The notes beneath the pieces were generated by a model. That model worked only from the letters and a program-made list of their open reading frames with translations. It ran no database searches and was not told the origin of the DNA. The translations under genes and the position numbers were made by a program. From positions 1-51,935 of the forward strand of contig CACNIC010000006.1 of assembly GCA_902620405.1 (NCBI GenBank): a stretch of DNA of 51,935 bases, in the 5' to 3' direction. Shown here piece after piece: positions 11,844 through 18,172 of the stretch; the stretch's first letter is position 1, and each line of letters opens with the position of its first letter. This DNA is from an uncultured SAR202 cluster bacterium (GTDB lineage: Bacteria; Chloroflexota; Dehalococcoidia; Lucifugimonadales; Lucifugimonadaceae).

Positions 11844-13346
11844 ATGAAAAAAGTTCTTATTATTCCAGGAAATACATTTGTATCAAGAAATTATTTTTCA
11901 TCTCCAATGATAGAAAATTTAAAAAGAATTTCTGTAAAGGATAATATAAAAATAATTGTGGCTGAGATAGAAAGCAATCCTGTCCCAAATGAAACTTTTG
12001 ATAAATTAAAAGAAATTTTTGAGGATGATTACAATGTACAATTTGTAAAACTAATCAAAAATCCTGAATCATTTATTGAAAGGTTAATTTGGTACCTAAA
12101 AAATAGTTTTCTCCACAAGGCTTTAACTTACAGGTTTAACGAAATAAATAATTTTATTACACAAAAAAGATTTAAAGATATAACAAATACTCAAATAAAA
12201 AAGGATGATAAAAAATATTTGTGGGACTCAGACATATGGCCAAAATATTTCGGATTTCCTTTCCCTAAATCTAAGTTAATTTTTAAAATTCTCTATTCCT
12301 TATTTTCATCGACCCTTTTTTCAAAGAATAAAATTATTGATGAAAATCTTAAGAATCTAAAACCAGATCTTGTTATTTTAGGTGACATACAAAACTCGGT
12401 AAGTTTTAGTTATTTTAAATTGTGCAAAAAATACAAAATTAAAATTTGTGGAAATGTAAGAACTTGGGATCATTTAACTAAAAATGGACCTGTAATTAAC
12501 GGATTAGACGAATATTGGGTTTGGAATCCTATTATGAAAGAAGAATTAATTAAATTCCACAAGATTAATATAGACAAAATTTATGAAGTTGGGTCTCCAC
12601 AATTTGATTATTATTTGAATAATAAAGAAGCCAACAAGGATTTAGTGGAATACTTCAAAGTTAAAAATCCTGAAGATGAATTCTCATTAAAAAATGACTC
12701 TTCTATACTTTTTTTTGCAACCAATAGGCCGCACAGAGGAATAGGGGAAGAGTCAATTATTCACCATATTTGTGAAAATATAGCTTTAGGTGCATACCCT
12801 GATAAAGATATAACTATTATTTTAAGATCACATCCATACGATAATACTTTTGAAAAAAGATTTGAAGAATTCAAAAAATACCCATTTGTCAGATTATTTA
12901 GTTCGCCGCCACTTACTAATTTCATTCCTTCAGAATTTAGGGAAGATATGATTAAAGTGAATTTGCTCCTTGAAAGAACAAAGTTGGTAATTTGTGGCCA
13001 AAGTACATTTGCAATAGACTCAGCTTGCACTGATACGCCTATAATTAATATTTCTTTTGAAGGAGATGTAAAGGTTGATGAAAAATTATCAGTAAAAAAT
13101 AGATATAATGTTGATCATTATCAAAAGCTCTTATCTTTTAATGGAACCAAGATTGCTGATAGTTTTAAATCATTAGATGAAATGATCATCGAATACTTAA
13201 AGGACCCTACCATAGATAGACAGGGTAGAAATTTGATAAATAAAAATTTTGCTGGATTTTCTGAAAAACCATCCTCCGAAAGAATAACTGAGAGAATTCT
13301 TCTTAATTTAATGGTGGCAACGGGAGGATTTGAACCTCCGACCTAG
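11844..13346 (+). CDS. GT-B-like surface polysaccharide transferase, unassigned
   Basis: 500 aa. No exact family is assigned, but the architecture suggests a GT-B fold like that of capsule or CDP-glycerol transferases: an N-terminal half ending LKPDLVILGDIQNS, then WVWNPIMKEELIKF and IYEVGSPQFDYY, then RSHPYD and VICGQSTFAIDSACTDTPIINIS, typical of donor-binding regions. No signal peptide or membrane segment is seen. The frame runs 35 bases into the oppositely oriented tRNA-Met, so the last 12 residues (MVATGGFEPPT) are antisense tRNA sequence; this is the natural stop of the open frame, but it makes an odd C-terminus. TAAAAT five bases before the ATG suggests a leaderless start. Confidence 0.65.
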   Translation: MKKVLIIPGNTFVSRNYFSSPMIENLKRISVKDNIKIIVAEIESNPVPNETFDKLKEIFEDDYNVQFVKLIKNPESFIERLIWYLKNSFLHKALTYRFNEINNFITQKRFKDITNTQIKKDDKKYLWDSDIWPKYFGFPFPKSKLIFKILYSLFSSTLFSKNKIIDENLKNLKPDLVILGDIQNSVSFSYFKLCKKYKIKICGNVRTWDHLTKNGPVINGLDEYWVWNPIMKEELIKFHKINIDKIYEVGSPQFDYYLNNKEANKDLVEYFKVKNPEDEFSLKNDSSILFFATNRPHRGIGEESIIHHICENIALGAYPDKDITIILRSHPYDNTFEKRFEEFKKYPFVRLFSSPPLTNFIPSEFREDMIKVNLLLERTKLVICGQSTFAIDSACTDTPIINISFEGDVKVDEKLSVKNRYNVDHYQKLLSFNGTKIADSFKSLDEMIIEYLKDPTIDRQGRNLINKNFAGFSEKPSSERITERILLNLMVATGGFEPPT

Positions 13347-13387
13347 GCCTTATGAAGACCCCGCTCTGACCCCTGAGCTACGTTGCC
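13312..13387 (-). tRNA. tRNA-Met (CAT), elongator type
   Basis: Read on the minus strand: acceptor GGCAACG/CGTTGCC, D arm GCTC/GAGC, anticodon stem GGGTC/GGCCT with loop TTCATAA (anticodon CAT at 13352-13354), T arm GGAGG-TTCAAAT-CCTCC, discriminator A and an encoded CCA at 13312-13314. The G1-C72 pair rules out the formylatable initiator, and the 5' half (GGC-ACGTAGCTCAG) matches typical elongator tRNA-Met. tRNA-Ile with a lysidine-modified CAT is the alternative. The 3' half overlaps the end of the opposing transferase frame. Confidence 0.93.
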
Positions 13388-13462: not shown

Positions 13463-14341
13463 TTATCTTGAAAAATCACCACTTCTGCCACCTGATTTTT
13501 TTATTAATTTTATATCTGTAATATATGCTGATTTATCGACTGCCTTACACATGTCATATATAGTAACGCAAGCTATAGAAACCCCAGTAAAAGCTTCAAT
13601 TTCAACTCCTGTTTTCCAGTCAGCTTTGGTAGTGCAAATAACATTAAGGCCTGGAAGTTCTTCATCTGGTTCAATTTCAATTTTTATTTCATTTAAAGGT
13701 ATTGTATGGCATAAAGGTATCAGTGTAGGTGTGGATTTAGCTGCAGTAATTCCTGCTGTTCTAGAAAGAGTAAATATATCTCCTTTAACCAATTCCCCTT
13801 TTTTAATAATATCAAGAGTTTCCTTTTTCATAACCACTTTTCCTGAAACTATTGCACTCCTTGATGTTATTTCTTTTTCAGAAACATCCACCATTTTTAT
13901 GCTCCCATCTGAATCAATATGAGAAAGTTCTTTTAAATTATTTTTTTTTAATTCGTTAATTGCACTTACAGCTAAATTATCAGCTACTTCATTAAATTTA
14001 TTTCCTGAATGACCTTTAACCCATTCCCATTCGACAATTCTTTTTTCTAATAATTTATCGAGTTGATCCCAAAGATCATTATTTGCATTTCTTTTCCAAT
14101 TTTTAGTAATTGTGTTTATTACGTAAGTACTATCAGAATAAATTTTTACCTTGTCATCATTTTTTAATTCTTCAAGTTCAAGGCTCTTTATAACAGCAGT
14201 AATCTCCATTCTGTTATTTGTTGTCTCAAGCTCAGAACCACTTATTTCTTTTTCTTCACCAGACTCAAAAATAATTATTGCTCCCCATCCGCCCATCCCG
14301 GGGTTTACTGAGCATGCTCCATCAGTATAAATTTTAATCAT
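13463..14341 (-). CDS. Fusion: ribonuclease HI - MoaC (cyclic pyranopterin monophosphate synthase)
   Basis: 292 aa with two complete catalytic domains in one frame. Residues 1-130 are RNase HI: D7 (YTDGAC), E46 (NNRMEIT), D70 (YSDST), H111 (KGHSG) and D121 (VADNLA) are all present, so it should cut RNA in RNA-DNA hybrids. Residues about 138-292 are MoaC: MVDVSEK, GDIF, AAK202, PLC211-H212, IYDMCKA (D263, K266) and the KKSGGRSGDF end, which converts the MoaA product to cyclic pyranopterin monophosphate. The linker is short and charged. The start overlaps the aldolase stop by 4 bases (ATGA). Normally these are two unrelated proteins; the link is not explained by a shared pathway. moaA is 2.2 kb away on the same strand. 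Confidence 0.92.
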   Translation of the reverse strand: MIKIYTDGACSVNPGMGGWGAIIIFESGEEKEISGSELETTNNRMEITAVIKSLELEELKNDDKVKIYSDSTYVINTITKNWKRNANNDLWDQLDKLLEKRIVEWEWVKGHSGNKFNEVADNLAVSAINELKKNNLKELSHIDSDGSIKMVDVSEKEITSRSAIVSGKVVMKKETLDIIKKGELVKGDIFTLSRTAGITAAKSTPTLIPLCHTIPLNEIKIEIEPDEELPGLNVICTTKADWKTGVEIEAFTGVSIACVTIYDMCKAVDKSAYITDIKLIKKSGGRSGDFSR

Positions 14342-15258
14342 GCTGATTTATAAATATCCATAATTTCTCGCATTAATGATAAACCTTCATCAAAAGGTCT
14401 TTGGAATGAATTCCTGCCAACTATTGAGCCGAATCCACCACCATTTGCAATTGCTTGTATTTCATCAAGAATTTCCTCTTTGCCCTTAGCTGGTCCACCG
14501 GAAAAAATAACTATTCTTTTGCCGTTAAAAGCTGATTGAATACAATGAGAAATTCTGTCAGAAAGAGTTTTAATTTTGATATCATTTTTCATATATAATT
14601 CTGAAATATCATCTTTACTAATATGTGCTGAAGGGGGTTTAATTTTTATAATATCTGCCCCCATTTGAGCTGCTATATGAGCTGCATAACTGATAACATC
14701 TACCGCTGTTTCATCTTCTTTTTTTAATTTTCCACCCCTCGGATAACTCCAAACAACCACAGCCAGTCCTTTTGATTTTGCTTCAAAAGTAATTTTTCTC
14801 AATTCTTCATACATTTTAGGAGATGAATCTGATCCAGGGTATATAGAAAATCCTACTGCTACACACCCCAACCTTACTGCATCATCTACAGATGAAGTCA
14901 TAATTTGTGTTGGATCTCCACCAAATAAAGAATCAGAATTATTTAATTTTAAAATTAATGGAAGTTTTTCAGAAAATCTTTTTGCTCCATGTTCTAAAAA
15001 ACCCAGAGGAGCGGCATATGCATTACAACCTGCCTCAATGGCAAAATTAAAATGATAATCAGGATCATATGCTTCTGGATTTGGTGCAAATGATTTTGAT
15101 GGTCCATGCTCAAAGCCCTGATCGACTGGCAATATAACTAACTTTCCAGTGCCCCCTAAGTAGCCTGAATTGAGTAACCTTTCGATATTTTTTTGGACAT
15201 TATTATTTTCGTGTTGATACCAAGAAAGAATTTGATTAACTTTTTCAGAATTTTTCAT
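14338..15258 (-). CDS. fba: Class I fructose-bisphosphate aldolase, DhnA/archaeal type
   Basis: 306 aa. Hallmarks of the DhnA-type class I aldolase are VDQGFEHGP (45-53), the GGDPTQIM segment (113-120), and DIIKIKPPS (202-210), which carries the Schiff-base lysine (K205 or K207). SGGPAKGKEEIL and GSIVGRNSFQRPFDEG form the phosphate-binding end. It makes or cleaves fructose-1,6-bisphosphate in glycolysis/gluconeogenesis. The ATG is preceded by a GGAGAAG site. It is divergent from the FBPase-HTH gene across 77 bases and co-transcribed with the RNase HI-MoaC fusion. The pairing with FBPase suggests a gluconeogenic control unit. Confidence 0.9.
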   Translation of the reverse strand: MKNSEKVNQILSWYQHENNNVQKNIERLLNSGYLGGTGKLVILPVDQGFEHGPSKSFAPNPEAYDPDYHFNFAIEAGCNAYAAPLGFLEHGAKRFSEKLPLILKLNNSDSLFGGDPTQIMTSSVDDAVRLGCVAVGFSIYPGSDSSPKMYEELRKITFEAKSKGLAVVVWSYPRGGKLKKEDETAVDVISYAAHIAAQMGADIIKIKPPSAHISKDDISELYMKNDIKIKTLSDRISHCIQSAFNGKRIVIFSGGPAKGKEEILDEIQAIANGGGFGSIVGRNSFQRPFDEGLSLMREIMDIYKSA

Positions 15259-15335: not shown

Positions 15336-16547
15336 ATGAACCTCCTTAGCTATTTAAATAAAGAGTTGGCTGGAAAAAGTGATGAAAATCTCGAATTAAT
15401 TTCGGTAATTTGTTCAGTTGCTGACTCAACTGTAGACATTGCAATGGACACAAGAGTAACTGGCCTTAAACAGATCAGAGGCTCAGCAAATGAGATAAAC
15501 GTCCAAGGTGAAGAAGTTCAAATGCTTGACCAAATTGCTAATAAGTCTTTAATTGATTCACTTTCAAAAAATAGCTCTTGCGCCGGTTATGCTAGTGAAG
15601 AAATAGACGAGCCATTAATTTTTAATCAATCTTCAAGATTTATGGTAGTCGCAGACCCTTTGGATGGCTCATCAAATATATCGGTTAATATGCCTATTGG
15701 TACAATATTTGGAATAATTAGAAACACTGATTATGGAGTGAGCAGTTTTAATAAATCTGGCCGATATTATATAAGTGCTGGATATTCATTATATGGACCA
15801 TCGGACATATTTGTTATTTGCGTAAACAATAAAGTTAGTGAGTTTACTCTTGATCCAAAAAAGAAAGAATATCAACTATCTAGGGATGATATTAAAATTC
15901 CAAGAACTGGTTCTATATATTCAATTAATGAAGGAAACTTCATTTCATGGGAAGATAATATTAAAAAATGGGTACTTAATAATAAAAATCCTACGGGCTC
16001 ATCTAGTAAAAGAAAAACTCTCAGATACGTCGGGTCTCTTGTAGCGGATGCTCATAGAACTTTGATAAATGGAGGTATTTTTGCATATCCTCCAGATAAG
16101 TCTCAGCCTGAAGGGAAGCTCAGATTGATGTACGAGGCAAACCCTTTAGCATTACTTTTCACATCTGCTGGAGGAAATGCAGTATCAATAGATAAAGAAA
16201 TACTTGATATTGAACCTGAAAATTTTCATCAAAGAACTCCTCTTATTCTAGGTTCGAAAGATGATATTGATGACTTCATGAATTTTACTACCTCCGGAAG
16301 AAGTTCGTTCAAAGAGACACCTGAAATTAGTCCAATTTTTAAATGGAATAAAGTTAATATTGCCAAACTTAGGTCACGGTTGGGTCTTAGCAGATCTCGT
16401 TTTGGAAAAAAAGTTGGTGTAACAAGAGGGACAGTTCTTAGGTGGGAATCAGGAGATGTTTCACCGAACTTAAGTAACAATAAGGCACTTGACAGTATCT
16501 ATTTATCAACAAGAAAAGAATTGCTACAAAACCCACTTGATACTTAA
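15336..16547 (+). CDS. fbp: Fructose-1,6-bisphosphatase class I fused to a C-terminal XRE-type HTH domain
   Basis: 403 aa, about 70 more than a standard class I FBPase. Residues 1-315 are the catalytic domain: SEE (87-89), DPLDGSSNI (107-115), the substrate segment GSLVADAHRTL (233-243), and KLRLMYEANP (261-270) with the metal-ligand Glu267. Residues about 340-395 are a helix-turn-helix of the XRE/Cro type (IAKLRSRLGLSRSRFGKKVG, then VTRGTVLRWESGDVSPN), joined by a short linker. The enzyme removes the 1-phosphate in gluconeogenesis; the added domain should bind DNA. Divergent orientation to aldolase suggests autoregulation or metabolite-sensing control, which is inference. A six-codon ORF (15319-15339) ends on the start codon in an ATGA overlap. 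The 3' end stops one base from moaA. Confidence 0.92.
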   Translation: MNLLSYLNKELAGKSDENLELISVICSVADSTVDIAMDTRVTGLKQIRGSANEINVQGEEVQMLDQIANKSLIDSLSKNSSCAGYASEEIDEPLIFNQSSRFMVVADPLDGSSNISVNMPIGTIFGIIRNTDYGVSSFNKSGRYYISAGYSLYGPSDIFVICVNNKVSEFTLDPKKKEYQLSRDDIKIPRTGSIYSINEGNFISWEDNIKKWVLNNKNPTGSSSKRKTLRYVGSLVADAHRTLINGGIFAYPPDKSQPEGKLRLMYEANPLALLFTSAGGNAVSIDKEILDIEPENFHQRTPLILGSKDDIDDFMNFTTSGRSSFKETPEISPIFKWNKVNIAKLRSRLGLSRSRFGKKVGVTRGTVLRWESGDVSPNLSNNKALDSIYLSTRKELLQNPLDT

Positions 16548-16548
16548 G

Positions 16549-17553
16549 TTATCCACCTGTTTGAAACATTTCGATTTTATTTTTAACTTTAATCTTAGAT
16601 TTAGATCTTTCCAATGAATATTTATCATCCCTCAATTTCCACATATTTATTATCTCACTTATAATGTACTTATTCGATTTTCTACTTCTTAACATCGATT
16701 TCAAATTCATGCCCTTATTGGCAAAAAGACATGTAACAAGTTTTCCATCTGCTGTAATTCGTGCTCTAGTGCAGTTATCACAAAATGGATTAGAAATCGA
16801 AGAAATAAAACCAATTTCACCTTTGCCATCATCAAAGCTAAATCTGTTAGAGGTTTCAGATGGATAATTTTTTTCAATTTTAGATAACTTATATTTATTT
16901 GAAATAATCTTAAGAATATCATTAGAATTAACAACATTTTCTATGTCCCAAGAATTCAATGTTCCGACATCCATATATTCTATAAATCTAAGAATGTGGC
17001 CCTCTGACCTACAATAATCTACAAGCCCCATAATACTTTTTTCGTTAACACCTTTTCTGACCACTGTGTTTATTTTTATATTCTCAAAACCTTCTGATTT
17101 AGCTTTGCTGATACCTTTTATTACTTCATCAACATTGAATTTTTTACCACTCATTTTCTGAAAAACTTCGTTATCTAAAGAATCTAGACTGACCGTGAGT
17201 CTCTTTAGTCCAACTTGAAATAAATCTGAAGCATATTTCTCCAATAAGTAGCCATTGGTTGTCATTGCAATATCCAAATCATTATTAATTTTTGAAATAG
17301 ACCCAATTAATTTAGTAACATCCTTTCTCACTAATGGCTCACCGCCTGTTAACCTTATTTTTTTTACACCCAAAGATATAAAAATCTCGGCTAATCTATG
17401 TATTTCTTCAAAAGATAAAATTTGGTCTTTTTTTAGAAACTCAAATGCTTCACCATACAATTCTTCTGGCATGCAATATCTACATCTAAAATTGCATCTG
17501 TCTGTCACAGAAATTCTTAAATCTTCTAATTTTCGACCAAACTTATCATTCAT
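16549..17553 (-). CDS. moaA: GTP 3',8-cyclase MoaA
   Basis: 334 aa radical SAM enzyme for the first step of molybdenum cofactor synthesis. The N-terminal cluster motif is C20-x3-C24-x2-C27 (DRCNFRCRYCMPE), followed by the SAM-binding LTGGEP. The C-terminal cluster motif C-x2-C-x13-C (FCDNCTRA...TCLF) is present, and the protein ends in the Gly-Gly typical of MoaA. The start lies in the last codons of rdgB (8-base overlap), so translation is coupled. Its product is the substrate of the MoaC half of the fusion at 13463. Confidence 0.95.
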   Translation of the reverse strand: MNDKFGRKLEDLRISVTDRCNFRCRYCMPEELYGEAFEFLKKDQILSFEEIHRLAEIFISLGVKKIRLTGGEPLVRKDVTKLIGSISKINNDLDIAMTTNGYLLEKYASDLFQVGLKRLTVSLDSLDNEVFQKMSGKKFNVDEVIKGISKAKSEGFENIKINTVVRKGVNEKSIMGLVDYCRSEGHILRFIEYMDVGTLNSWDIENVVNSNDILKIISNKYKLSKIEKNYPSETSNRFSFDDGKGEIGFISSISNPFCDNCTRARITADGKLVTCLFANKGMNLKSMLRSRKSNKYIISEIINMWKLRDDKYSLERSKSKIKVKNKIEMFQTGG

Positions 17554-18172
17554 TTCTAAAAATCGTAGTTATCATTTTTTTTACTGCAACTGATCTATGA
17601 CTGATTGCATTTTTTAAATCGTATCCCAATTTACTAATTGTTTCATTGTAACCCAGAGGGATAAAAATTGGATCATACCCAAAACCGTCCCCATCAATAG
17701 ATTCATTAGAAATATATCCTTCAAGGTGTCCTGTAAATTCCATTTTTACTTGGTCATGTAAATTTAAAATTTTTATACAACAAACATATCTGGCCCTTCT
17801 ATTATTTTCTTCTACACCTTCCAGCTTAGAAAGAACCAATTCATTCCTTTCTCTAGAAGAAATATCCCCACCATACCTTGCTGACTTTATTCCCGGAGCA
17901 CCATTTAAATAATTTATTTCAATTCCTGAATCCTCTGACAATAAATATGTTTCTGGGCCTATTTCAATGCCTGAATCTCTAATTTTATTAAAATAGTAAC
18001 TAATTTTAATTTCTGCATTTTGGGAGAAAGTATTGCCGTCTTCAATCGGTTCTTCTTTAATTTTGAATGAAGATAAATTCAAAAATTCAATCCCAAAACC
18101 ATTTAATAAATGTTCAAATTCTTTAATTTTTCCTTCATTGTGTGTAGCTAATATCAGCTTCTTATTTTTCAA
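17546..18172 (-). CDS. rdgB: XTP/dITP diphosphatase (RdgB/HAM1)
   Basis: 208 aa, standard size. Motifs are LATHNEGKIKEF at the N-terminus (nucleotide binding), SEDSGIEI carrying the catalytic Asp, GAPGIKSARYGG, GDGFGYDPIFIP, and the C-terminal ISHRSVAVKKM. It hydrolyses deaminated purine triphosphates (XTP, dITP) and so cleans the nucleotide pool. First gene of an rdgB-moaA unit, divergent from the cox operon across 139 bases. Confidence 0.93.
   Translation of the reverse strand: MKNKKLILATHNEGKIKEFEHLLNGFGIEFLNLSSFKIKEEPIEDGNTFSQNAEIKISYYFNKIRDSGIEIGPETYLLSEDSGIEINYLNGAPGIKSARYGGDISSRERNELVLSKLEGVEENNRRARYVCCIKILNLHDQVKMEFTGHLEGYISNESIDGDGFGYDPIFIPLGYNETISKLGYDLKNAISHRSVAVKKMITTIFRNE

Follow-up and report, generated by a model that had tools for sequence, protein, structure and literature searches.

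The window, by which we mean the whole 51,935-nucleotide stretch that was analyzed, comes from an uncultured SAR202 cluster bacterium of the class Dehalococcoidia (Chloroflexota). On its reverse strand, one gene encodes ribonuclease HI (RNase HI) followed by MoaC, an enzyme of molybdenum cofactor (Moco) biosynthesis (Table 1). This fusion had been proposed in an earlier note on the same DNA, and we are virtually certain that it is real: the Pfam matches for RNase_H and MoaC lie in one frame, both are far above their cut-offs, and the arrangement recurs in relatives. The C-terminal half also exceeds the cut-off of the NCBIfam equivalog for MoaC (TIGR00581; 173 bits, cut-off of 141.5), and the N-terminal half falls narrowly below the cut-off for ribonuclease HI (PRK00203; 140.4, cut-off of 160). 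An AlphaFold2 model, based on an alignment of 41 fused sequences, has two well-folded domains (mean pLDDT of 92.6) whose mutual placement is unsure (pTM of 0.54). When compared to known structures with Foldseek, the MoaC half matches E. coli MoaC (4pyd, chain C; TMt of 0.94), and the RNase half matches entries for E. coli RNase HI (TMt of 0.72-0.77) as well as 3h08_B (0.84).

Table 1. Features of the fusion locus and its surroundings. Positions are in the window unless a locus is named.
Feature	Position	Strand	Remarks
Fused RNase HI-MoaC gene	13463..14341	-	292 aa, ATG start, single frame
RNase HI domain, residues 3-128	13958..14335	-	Pfam RNase_H, 2.9e-35; without basic protrusion (handle)
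MoaC domain, residues 150-285	13487..13894	-	Pfam MoaC, 2.2e-50
A9 tract in linker, proposed slippage site	13941..13949	-	A9 on the sense strand
TAA directly after A9	13938..13940	-	In frame if one A is added; chain would end at 134 aa
DeoC/LacD-type aldolase gene	14338..15258	-	Directly upstream; stop overlaps start codon of fusion
FBPase gene	15336..16547	+	Between moaA and the aldolase-fusion pair in the window's genus
moaA	16549..17553	-	Partner enzyme of MoaC
rdgB/Ham1-family gene	17546..18172	-	Overlaps moaA; conserved cluster member
Multi-RNase-H ORF of genus g10	L168:5352-6866; L166:5584-7086; L235	+ (L168, L166)	

The window's own genome (G000) has one match each to PF01967 and PF00075, both at this gene. 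Thus, no other copy of rnhA or moaC, which the earlier note had asked about, was found in this assembly of 966,721 bp and 32 contigs; its completeness of about 70% leaves some room for a second copy.

Some of the surrounding genes belong to a conserved cluster. We compared 61 loci (L141-L200 together with the window), most of which are arranged as rdgB-moaA-(rnhA)-moaC; members of the rdgB family are present at 51 of the 61 loci, and so are members of the moaA family. Three loci (L182, L185, and L196) have rdgB-moaA-moaC without a detectable RNase H between them. The FBPase has a C-terminal helix-turn-helix domain (HTH_3, residues 342-381), and its length is 403-412 amino acids in the window's genus versus 205-355 in other genomes. 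A scan for promoters and terminators gave results at chance level. Downstream of the fusion, a tRNA-Met gene (13312-13387, minus strand) overlaps the 3' end of an open reading frame on the other strand (11844-13346), the last residues of which are read from the tRNA gene.

Spread and origin of the fusion

We searched 60 relatives and found a match in 55 of them. The two genes are fused in 33 of the 60 (24 as one full-length match, and 9 with longer linkers that were shown to be one frame) and are adjacent yet separate in 20. In one genome, rnhA and moaC are unlinked (G042); another has the RNase H only (G032); and neither half was matched in G003, G007, G021, G030, or G031. Within the window's genus, 8 of 10 genomes carry the fusion, and the remaining two lack a match; the eight are incomplete MAG-like assemblies that are not independent of each other. 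At least 22 of 158 genomes from the class have the fusion. For 132 phylum genomes outside the class (of 151), there was no single match spanning both halves among the matches listed, which would not exclude fusions with long linkers. None of 790 matching plasmid records covers 80% of the query.

Because the fused frame is present in many genomes at 40-80% identity, it reflects neither chance nor a sequencing error, the latter being an objection that the earlier note had raised. The note also supposed that stop codons between the halves in other genomes would count against a fusion. Such stops do occur, but they correspond to the operon state that preceded it. In the split pairs, the stop codon of rnhA lies 11-66 nt ahead of the MoaC domain and frequently overlaps the start codon of moaC (TAATG), and the two genes are mostly in different frames. 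Given this closeness or overlap, a small insertion or deletion can fuse them. Since relatives without the fusion carry rnhA next to moaC, the fusion almost certainly arose from neighboring genes of an operon, as the note had guessed.

The linkers between the RNase H and MoaC matches vary from 3 to 70 amino acids. A tree of the RNase H halves (89 rows) requires at least 7 changes of the fused label, and its starred branches force at least 2 changes; for MoaC (85 rows), the tree has 15 such changes. Both trees have few columns and many open forks, so these numbers are unsure, but the fusion appears to have been gained or lost repeatedly. In each of the two trees, one fused relative (L034) sits beside a genome from the window's order.

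The fusion belongs with the known fusions of RNase HI to cofactor enzymes, and the slippage junction that we propose below is the new part. The closest are the actinobacterial RNase HI-CobC proteins (Rv2228c, MSMEG_4305, and SCO2299), which, as described in PMC7466739, have an N-terminal RNase HI without a handle and a C-terminal enzyme of cofactor biosynthesis, are confined to one lineage, and have variable linkers. However, the partner here is MoaC: the window's protein has no CobC/phosphatase domain, and it scores 41 bits against the comparable NCBIfam entry PRK07238, which has a cut-off of 326. The two fusions also differ in that this one originated from an rnhA-moaC operon in Chloroflexota and has an A9 junction in one genus. 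Proteins with MoaC as one half are known as well, namely MoaC/MoaB (PRK03604), MoaC/MOSC (PRK14499), and MoaC/MobA (PRK14500). In those proteins, the partner acts in the same pathway and follows MoaC, whereas here the partner lies N-terminal to MoaC and its substrates are RNA/DNA hybrids; against all three NCBIfam entries, the window's protein scores far below the cut-off. The earlier note's statement that there is no standard RNase H-MoaC protein agrees with NCBIfam and with the literature that we searched, as none is described in the available text of those papers, including PMC3120642; the available text of PMC3711429 and PMC5009743 names neither RNase H nor molybdenum genes. But the fusion of an RNase HI to a cofactor enzyme does have a precedent, RNase HI-CobC (PMC7466739). 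The RNase HI-MoaC protein is a second, independent case, and it is common in one class.

The two halves

The catalytic residues that the earlier note had listed are all present in the window's protein: D7, E46, D70, H111, and D121 in RNase HI, which has the fold and the catalytic residues of the E. coli enzyme (D10, E48, and D70, with H124 and D134), and K202, C211-H212, D263, and K266 in MoaC. K186, which corresponds to K51 of E. coli MoaC, is present too. Across 53 fused RNase H rows, D10, E48, and D70 (E. coli numbering) are kept in every one; at D10, one row from a split gene is ambiguous. Three fused rows (L193, L194, and L195) have another residue in place of H124; at D134, 13 fused rows have N, 2 have H, and 2 align to a gap. 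In E. coli RNase HI, D134N and D134H are tolerated, and changing H124 only weakens the enzyme. One of the genomes in which H124 is replaced (G101, with locus L193) also has a canonical second RNase HI.

The MoaC half matches the family profile and has the equivalents of the active-site residues K51, K67, H77, E112, E114, D128, and K131. In 41 aligned fused proteins, K186, K202, H212, E247, E249, D263, and K266 are invariant; in a comparison of 81 MoaC rows, K51, K67, H77, E112, E114, D128, K131, and K147 are kept in all 81, and C76 is replaced by A in four. Both halves have a dN/dS of 0.01-0.07 in the three least diverged pairs that were tested (among G001, G004, and G008); for pairs that are further apart, dS is high or saturated. 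We consider it very likely that both enzymes are active in the window's protein. Users of the cofactor are encoded in the genus: MoCoBD_1 is present in 9 of 10 genomes and Molybdopterin in 8 of 10, and G000 has both. MoaE was identified in 5 of the 10 genomes, and none was found in G000, which is incomplete. In those five genomes (G001, G002, G004, G006, and G008), MoaE lies in open frames of 217-230 amino acids, as compared to a family of 114 positions, so these are possibly another fusion of Moco genes.

The RNase HI half lacks the basic protrusion of the E. coli type and is 13 residues shorter in this region (79-104). Other RNases HI without a handle are known (PMC1950709 and PMC9719913). 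The handle is missing from 51 of 54 fused RNase halves and is present in 13 of 20 unfused proteins from the same operon slot; the three fused proteins with a handle are from G018, G027, and G036. We considered whether handle loss might be a cause or a result of the fusion. The two are associated, but the state of the handle changes just twice on the RNase H tree, so we rejected this idea; handle loss is an old event and no test of function. Four RNases HI from one family outside the window's class (f83; L221, L224, L225, and L226) also lack the handle, are without MoaC in frame, and form one supported clade.

The fused domain is the sole RNase_H match in 42 of the 52 fused genomes. An additional match was found in five (G052, G058, G079, G101, and G192); three (G018, G027, and G036) have an ORF with multiple RNase H stretches upstream of the fusion; G167 has two weak extra matches; and G206 has a fragment below the cut-off. 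The multi-RNase-H ORF is found in genus g10, is about 500 amino acids long, and lies directly upstream of the fusion. Of its three RNase H-like stretches, the first two are weak and degenerate and the third is canonical. In G167, a second copy of RNase H, interrupted by a TAG codon, lies directly upstream of the fusion (G167:C114:17394-17753, plus strand, in L192). RNase HII is present in 49 of the 52 fused genomes, with no match in G006, G117, or the incomplete G000.

An A9 tract at the junction

All eight genomes from the genus that have the gene contain a run of exactly nine A's at the junction. It is followed by TAA in G000 and G009, by GTAA in G001, G004, G005, and G008, by TGA in G002, and by TTAA in G006. 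The codon phase of the tract is 2 in G000 and G009, 0 in G001, G004, G005, and G008, 1 in G002, and 0 in G006, and the linker peptides of G001, G002, and G009 are just 25-67% identical to the window's. Because the A9 is constant while its phase and the peptide vary, the DNA tract outlasts the peptide that it encodes. With one A fewer or one A more, the protein would end at 130-145 amino acids in all eight genomes, as RNase HI with a short tail; an off-frame stop codon lies 0-13 codons past the tract in each of them. Fused relatives outside the genus do not have A9 at the junction, so the fusion does not need it. One split pair (L183) has A8.

As a control, we analyzed 484 genes (463,578 coding bases) from the eight genomes. 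These contain 28 A9 tracts, of which 8 are the junction, and no tracts of ten or more. For the other 20 tracts, A9 recurred (within about 9 codons) in none of 57 comparisons to reciprocal-best orthologs; for 6 of the 20, the sampled DNA contained no ortholog. Across the 476 other genes, those 20 A9 tracts compare with an average of 30.9 in synonymous shuffles, which is below all 200 of the shuffles, and tracts of ten or more number 0 versus 15.6. Tracts of A6-A8 are above the synonymous-codon shuffles. The depletion of A9 and longer runs implies that tracts of nine or more are selected against elsewhere in coding DNA. Baranov and colleagues recognized slippage-prone lengths by such depletion, with nine being the length in many genomes (PMC1088944).

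Codon usage could account for some of this pattern. AAA makes up 77-91% of lysine codons, and if the linker peptides are held fixed, codon choice alone gives A9 or longer with a probability of 0.37-0.81 per genome; the product over the eight rows is 0.004, but the rows are related. If the peptide is shuffled, the probability is 0.02-0.18 per genome. Off-frame stops are found within 6 codons in 53-58% of places, and 8 of the 20 other A9 tracts likewise have a stop triplet 0-1 nt behind them. To have stops close by in both other frames is therefore common by chance and proves nothing by itself.

Interpretation of the junction

A conserved A9 on the coding strand, in a genome that avoids such tracts and with stops nearby in the other two frames, resembles dnaX of Thermus thermophilus (tau/gamma). 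There, too, a sense-strand A9 lies within one ORF with off-frame stops close behind, half of the product is short, and the short product is a complete N-terminal part (PMC1088944). Unlike in dnaX, the tract here joins two enzymes that are unrelated, and slippage is predicted from sequence. We propose that two neighboring genes of the rdgB-moaA-rnhA-moaC cluster fused in Dehalococcoidia-type Chloroflexota, giving one chain with a working RNase HI (for clearing R-loops and RNA primers) and a working MoaC (for the synthesis of cPMP with MoaA). RNA polymerase would slip on the junction A9 as it does on the A9 of dnaX. Messages without slippage, or with slips of three bases, would encode the fusion protein; with slips of one or two bases, translation would reach an off-frame stop 0-13 codons on and yield a free RNase HI of about 130-145 amino acids. 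One gene would thereby give both free RNase HI and the fusion, and the dose of RNase would be untied from the MoaC oligomer.

MoaC forms hexamers, and the earlier note expected an oligomer with six exposed RNase H domains. The idea that all of the RNase H is tied to such hexamers is weakened, though not refuted, if the A9 would also give free RNase HI. We infer slippage, the two products, and both activities from the sequences; the junction A9 is probably a conserved slippage site that gives free RNase HI. A bolder reading goes further: selection would maintain the A9 so that slippage frees RNase HI while the remaining transcripts encode the fused protein, which would set how much of the genome-maintenance enzyme is made relative to the cofactor enzyme, and the fusion would partly undo itself. 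We give this about even odds (a probability of roughly 0.5). If it is correct, slippage would let a cell retain a fusion at little cost while still making the free enzyme. This could account for the survival of fusions between unrelated enzymes through a stage at which forced tethering hurts.

It is also possible, if rather less likely, that this is a plain fusion of operon genes that was fixed by drift, in which case the two enzymes would share a chain but work independently, slippage would not be programmed, and the A9 would merely follow from an AT-rich genome encoding a linker with many lysines. The split pairs are adjacent or overlapping, the fused state changes frequently on both trees, and with so much use of AAA, A9 is not rare given the peptides. 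Drift was also favored by the authors of the study of RNase HI-CobC, which describes that removing CobC in M. smegmatis hardly mattered (PMC7466739). What drift does not easily explain is why A9 is present in 8 of 8 genomes despite the changing phase and peptide, when other A9 tracts never recur in orthologs and coding tracts of this length or longer are depleted. An artifact of sequencing or assembly that joined two genes has very little to recommend it beyond the fact that homopolymer tracts are typical sites of indel errors: dozens of genomes share the fused frame although their linkers are unrelated, which rules out such an error, and there are exactly nine A's in eight assemblies and low dN/dS across both halves.

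Two other explanations give the A9 or the fusion a different function. MoaC, or its oligomer, might replace the missing protrusion and help a handle-less RNase HI to hold RNA/DNA hybrids. This has been suspected for the CobC of Rv2228c, whose RNase half has no protrusion and is slower without CobC (PMC7466739), and it would fit with the handle being absent from 51 of 54 fused proteins versus 7 of 20 unfused proteins in the same slot. But with only two changes of the handle on the RNase tree, the association does not rest on independent cases; handles are also missing where no MoaC is attached, in 7 split pairs of the class and in 4 rnhA genes from a single family of another class; the fused proteins of G018, G027, and G036 keep the handle; and the placement of the domains in the model is unsure. 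We consider this explanation unlikely. We are slightly more skeptical still that the A9 acts in translation, either by a -1 ribosomal frameshift on A_AAA_AAA, which is in frame in every phase of the A9, or by a poly-lysine pause that would give RNase HI time to fold ahead of MoaC synthesis. For these purposes A7 or A8 would suffice, and both are far more common, yet there are exactly nine A's in all eight genomes. In addition, no significant fold was identified downstream of the tract in the five that were tested, which fits transcriptional rather than ribosomal slippage, as in our main reading. More broadly, split, fused, handle-bearing, and handle-less states coexist among these bacteria and form a natural series for asking what the fusion does.

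We also considered whether free MoaC might be made from an internal start. The window's linker contains no start codon, and 14 of 53 linkers lack ATG, GTG, and TTG. Across the 53 genes, the linker zone has proportionally fewer start codons (89/1594) than the rest of the gene (1008/13132). A Shine-Dalgarno-like word is more common before the start codons of the linker (23 of 89) than before those in the rest (125 of 1008), among rows that are not independent, and linker start codons may matter in other genera.
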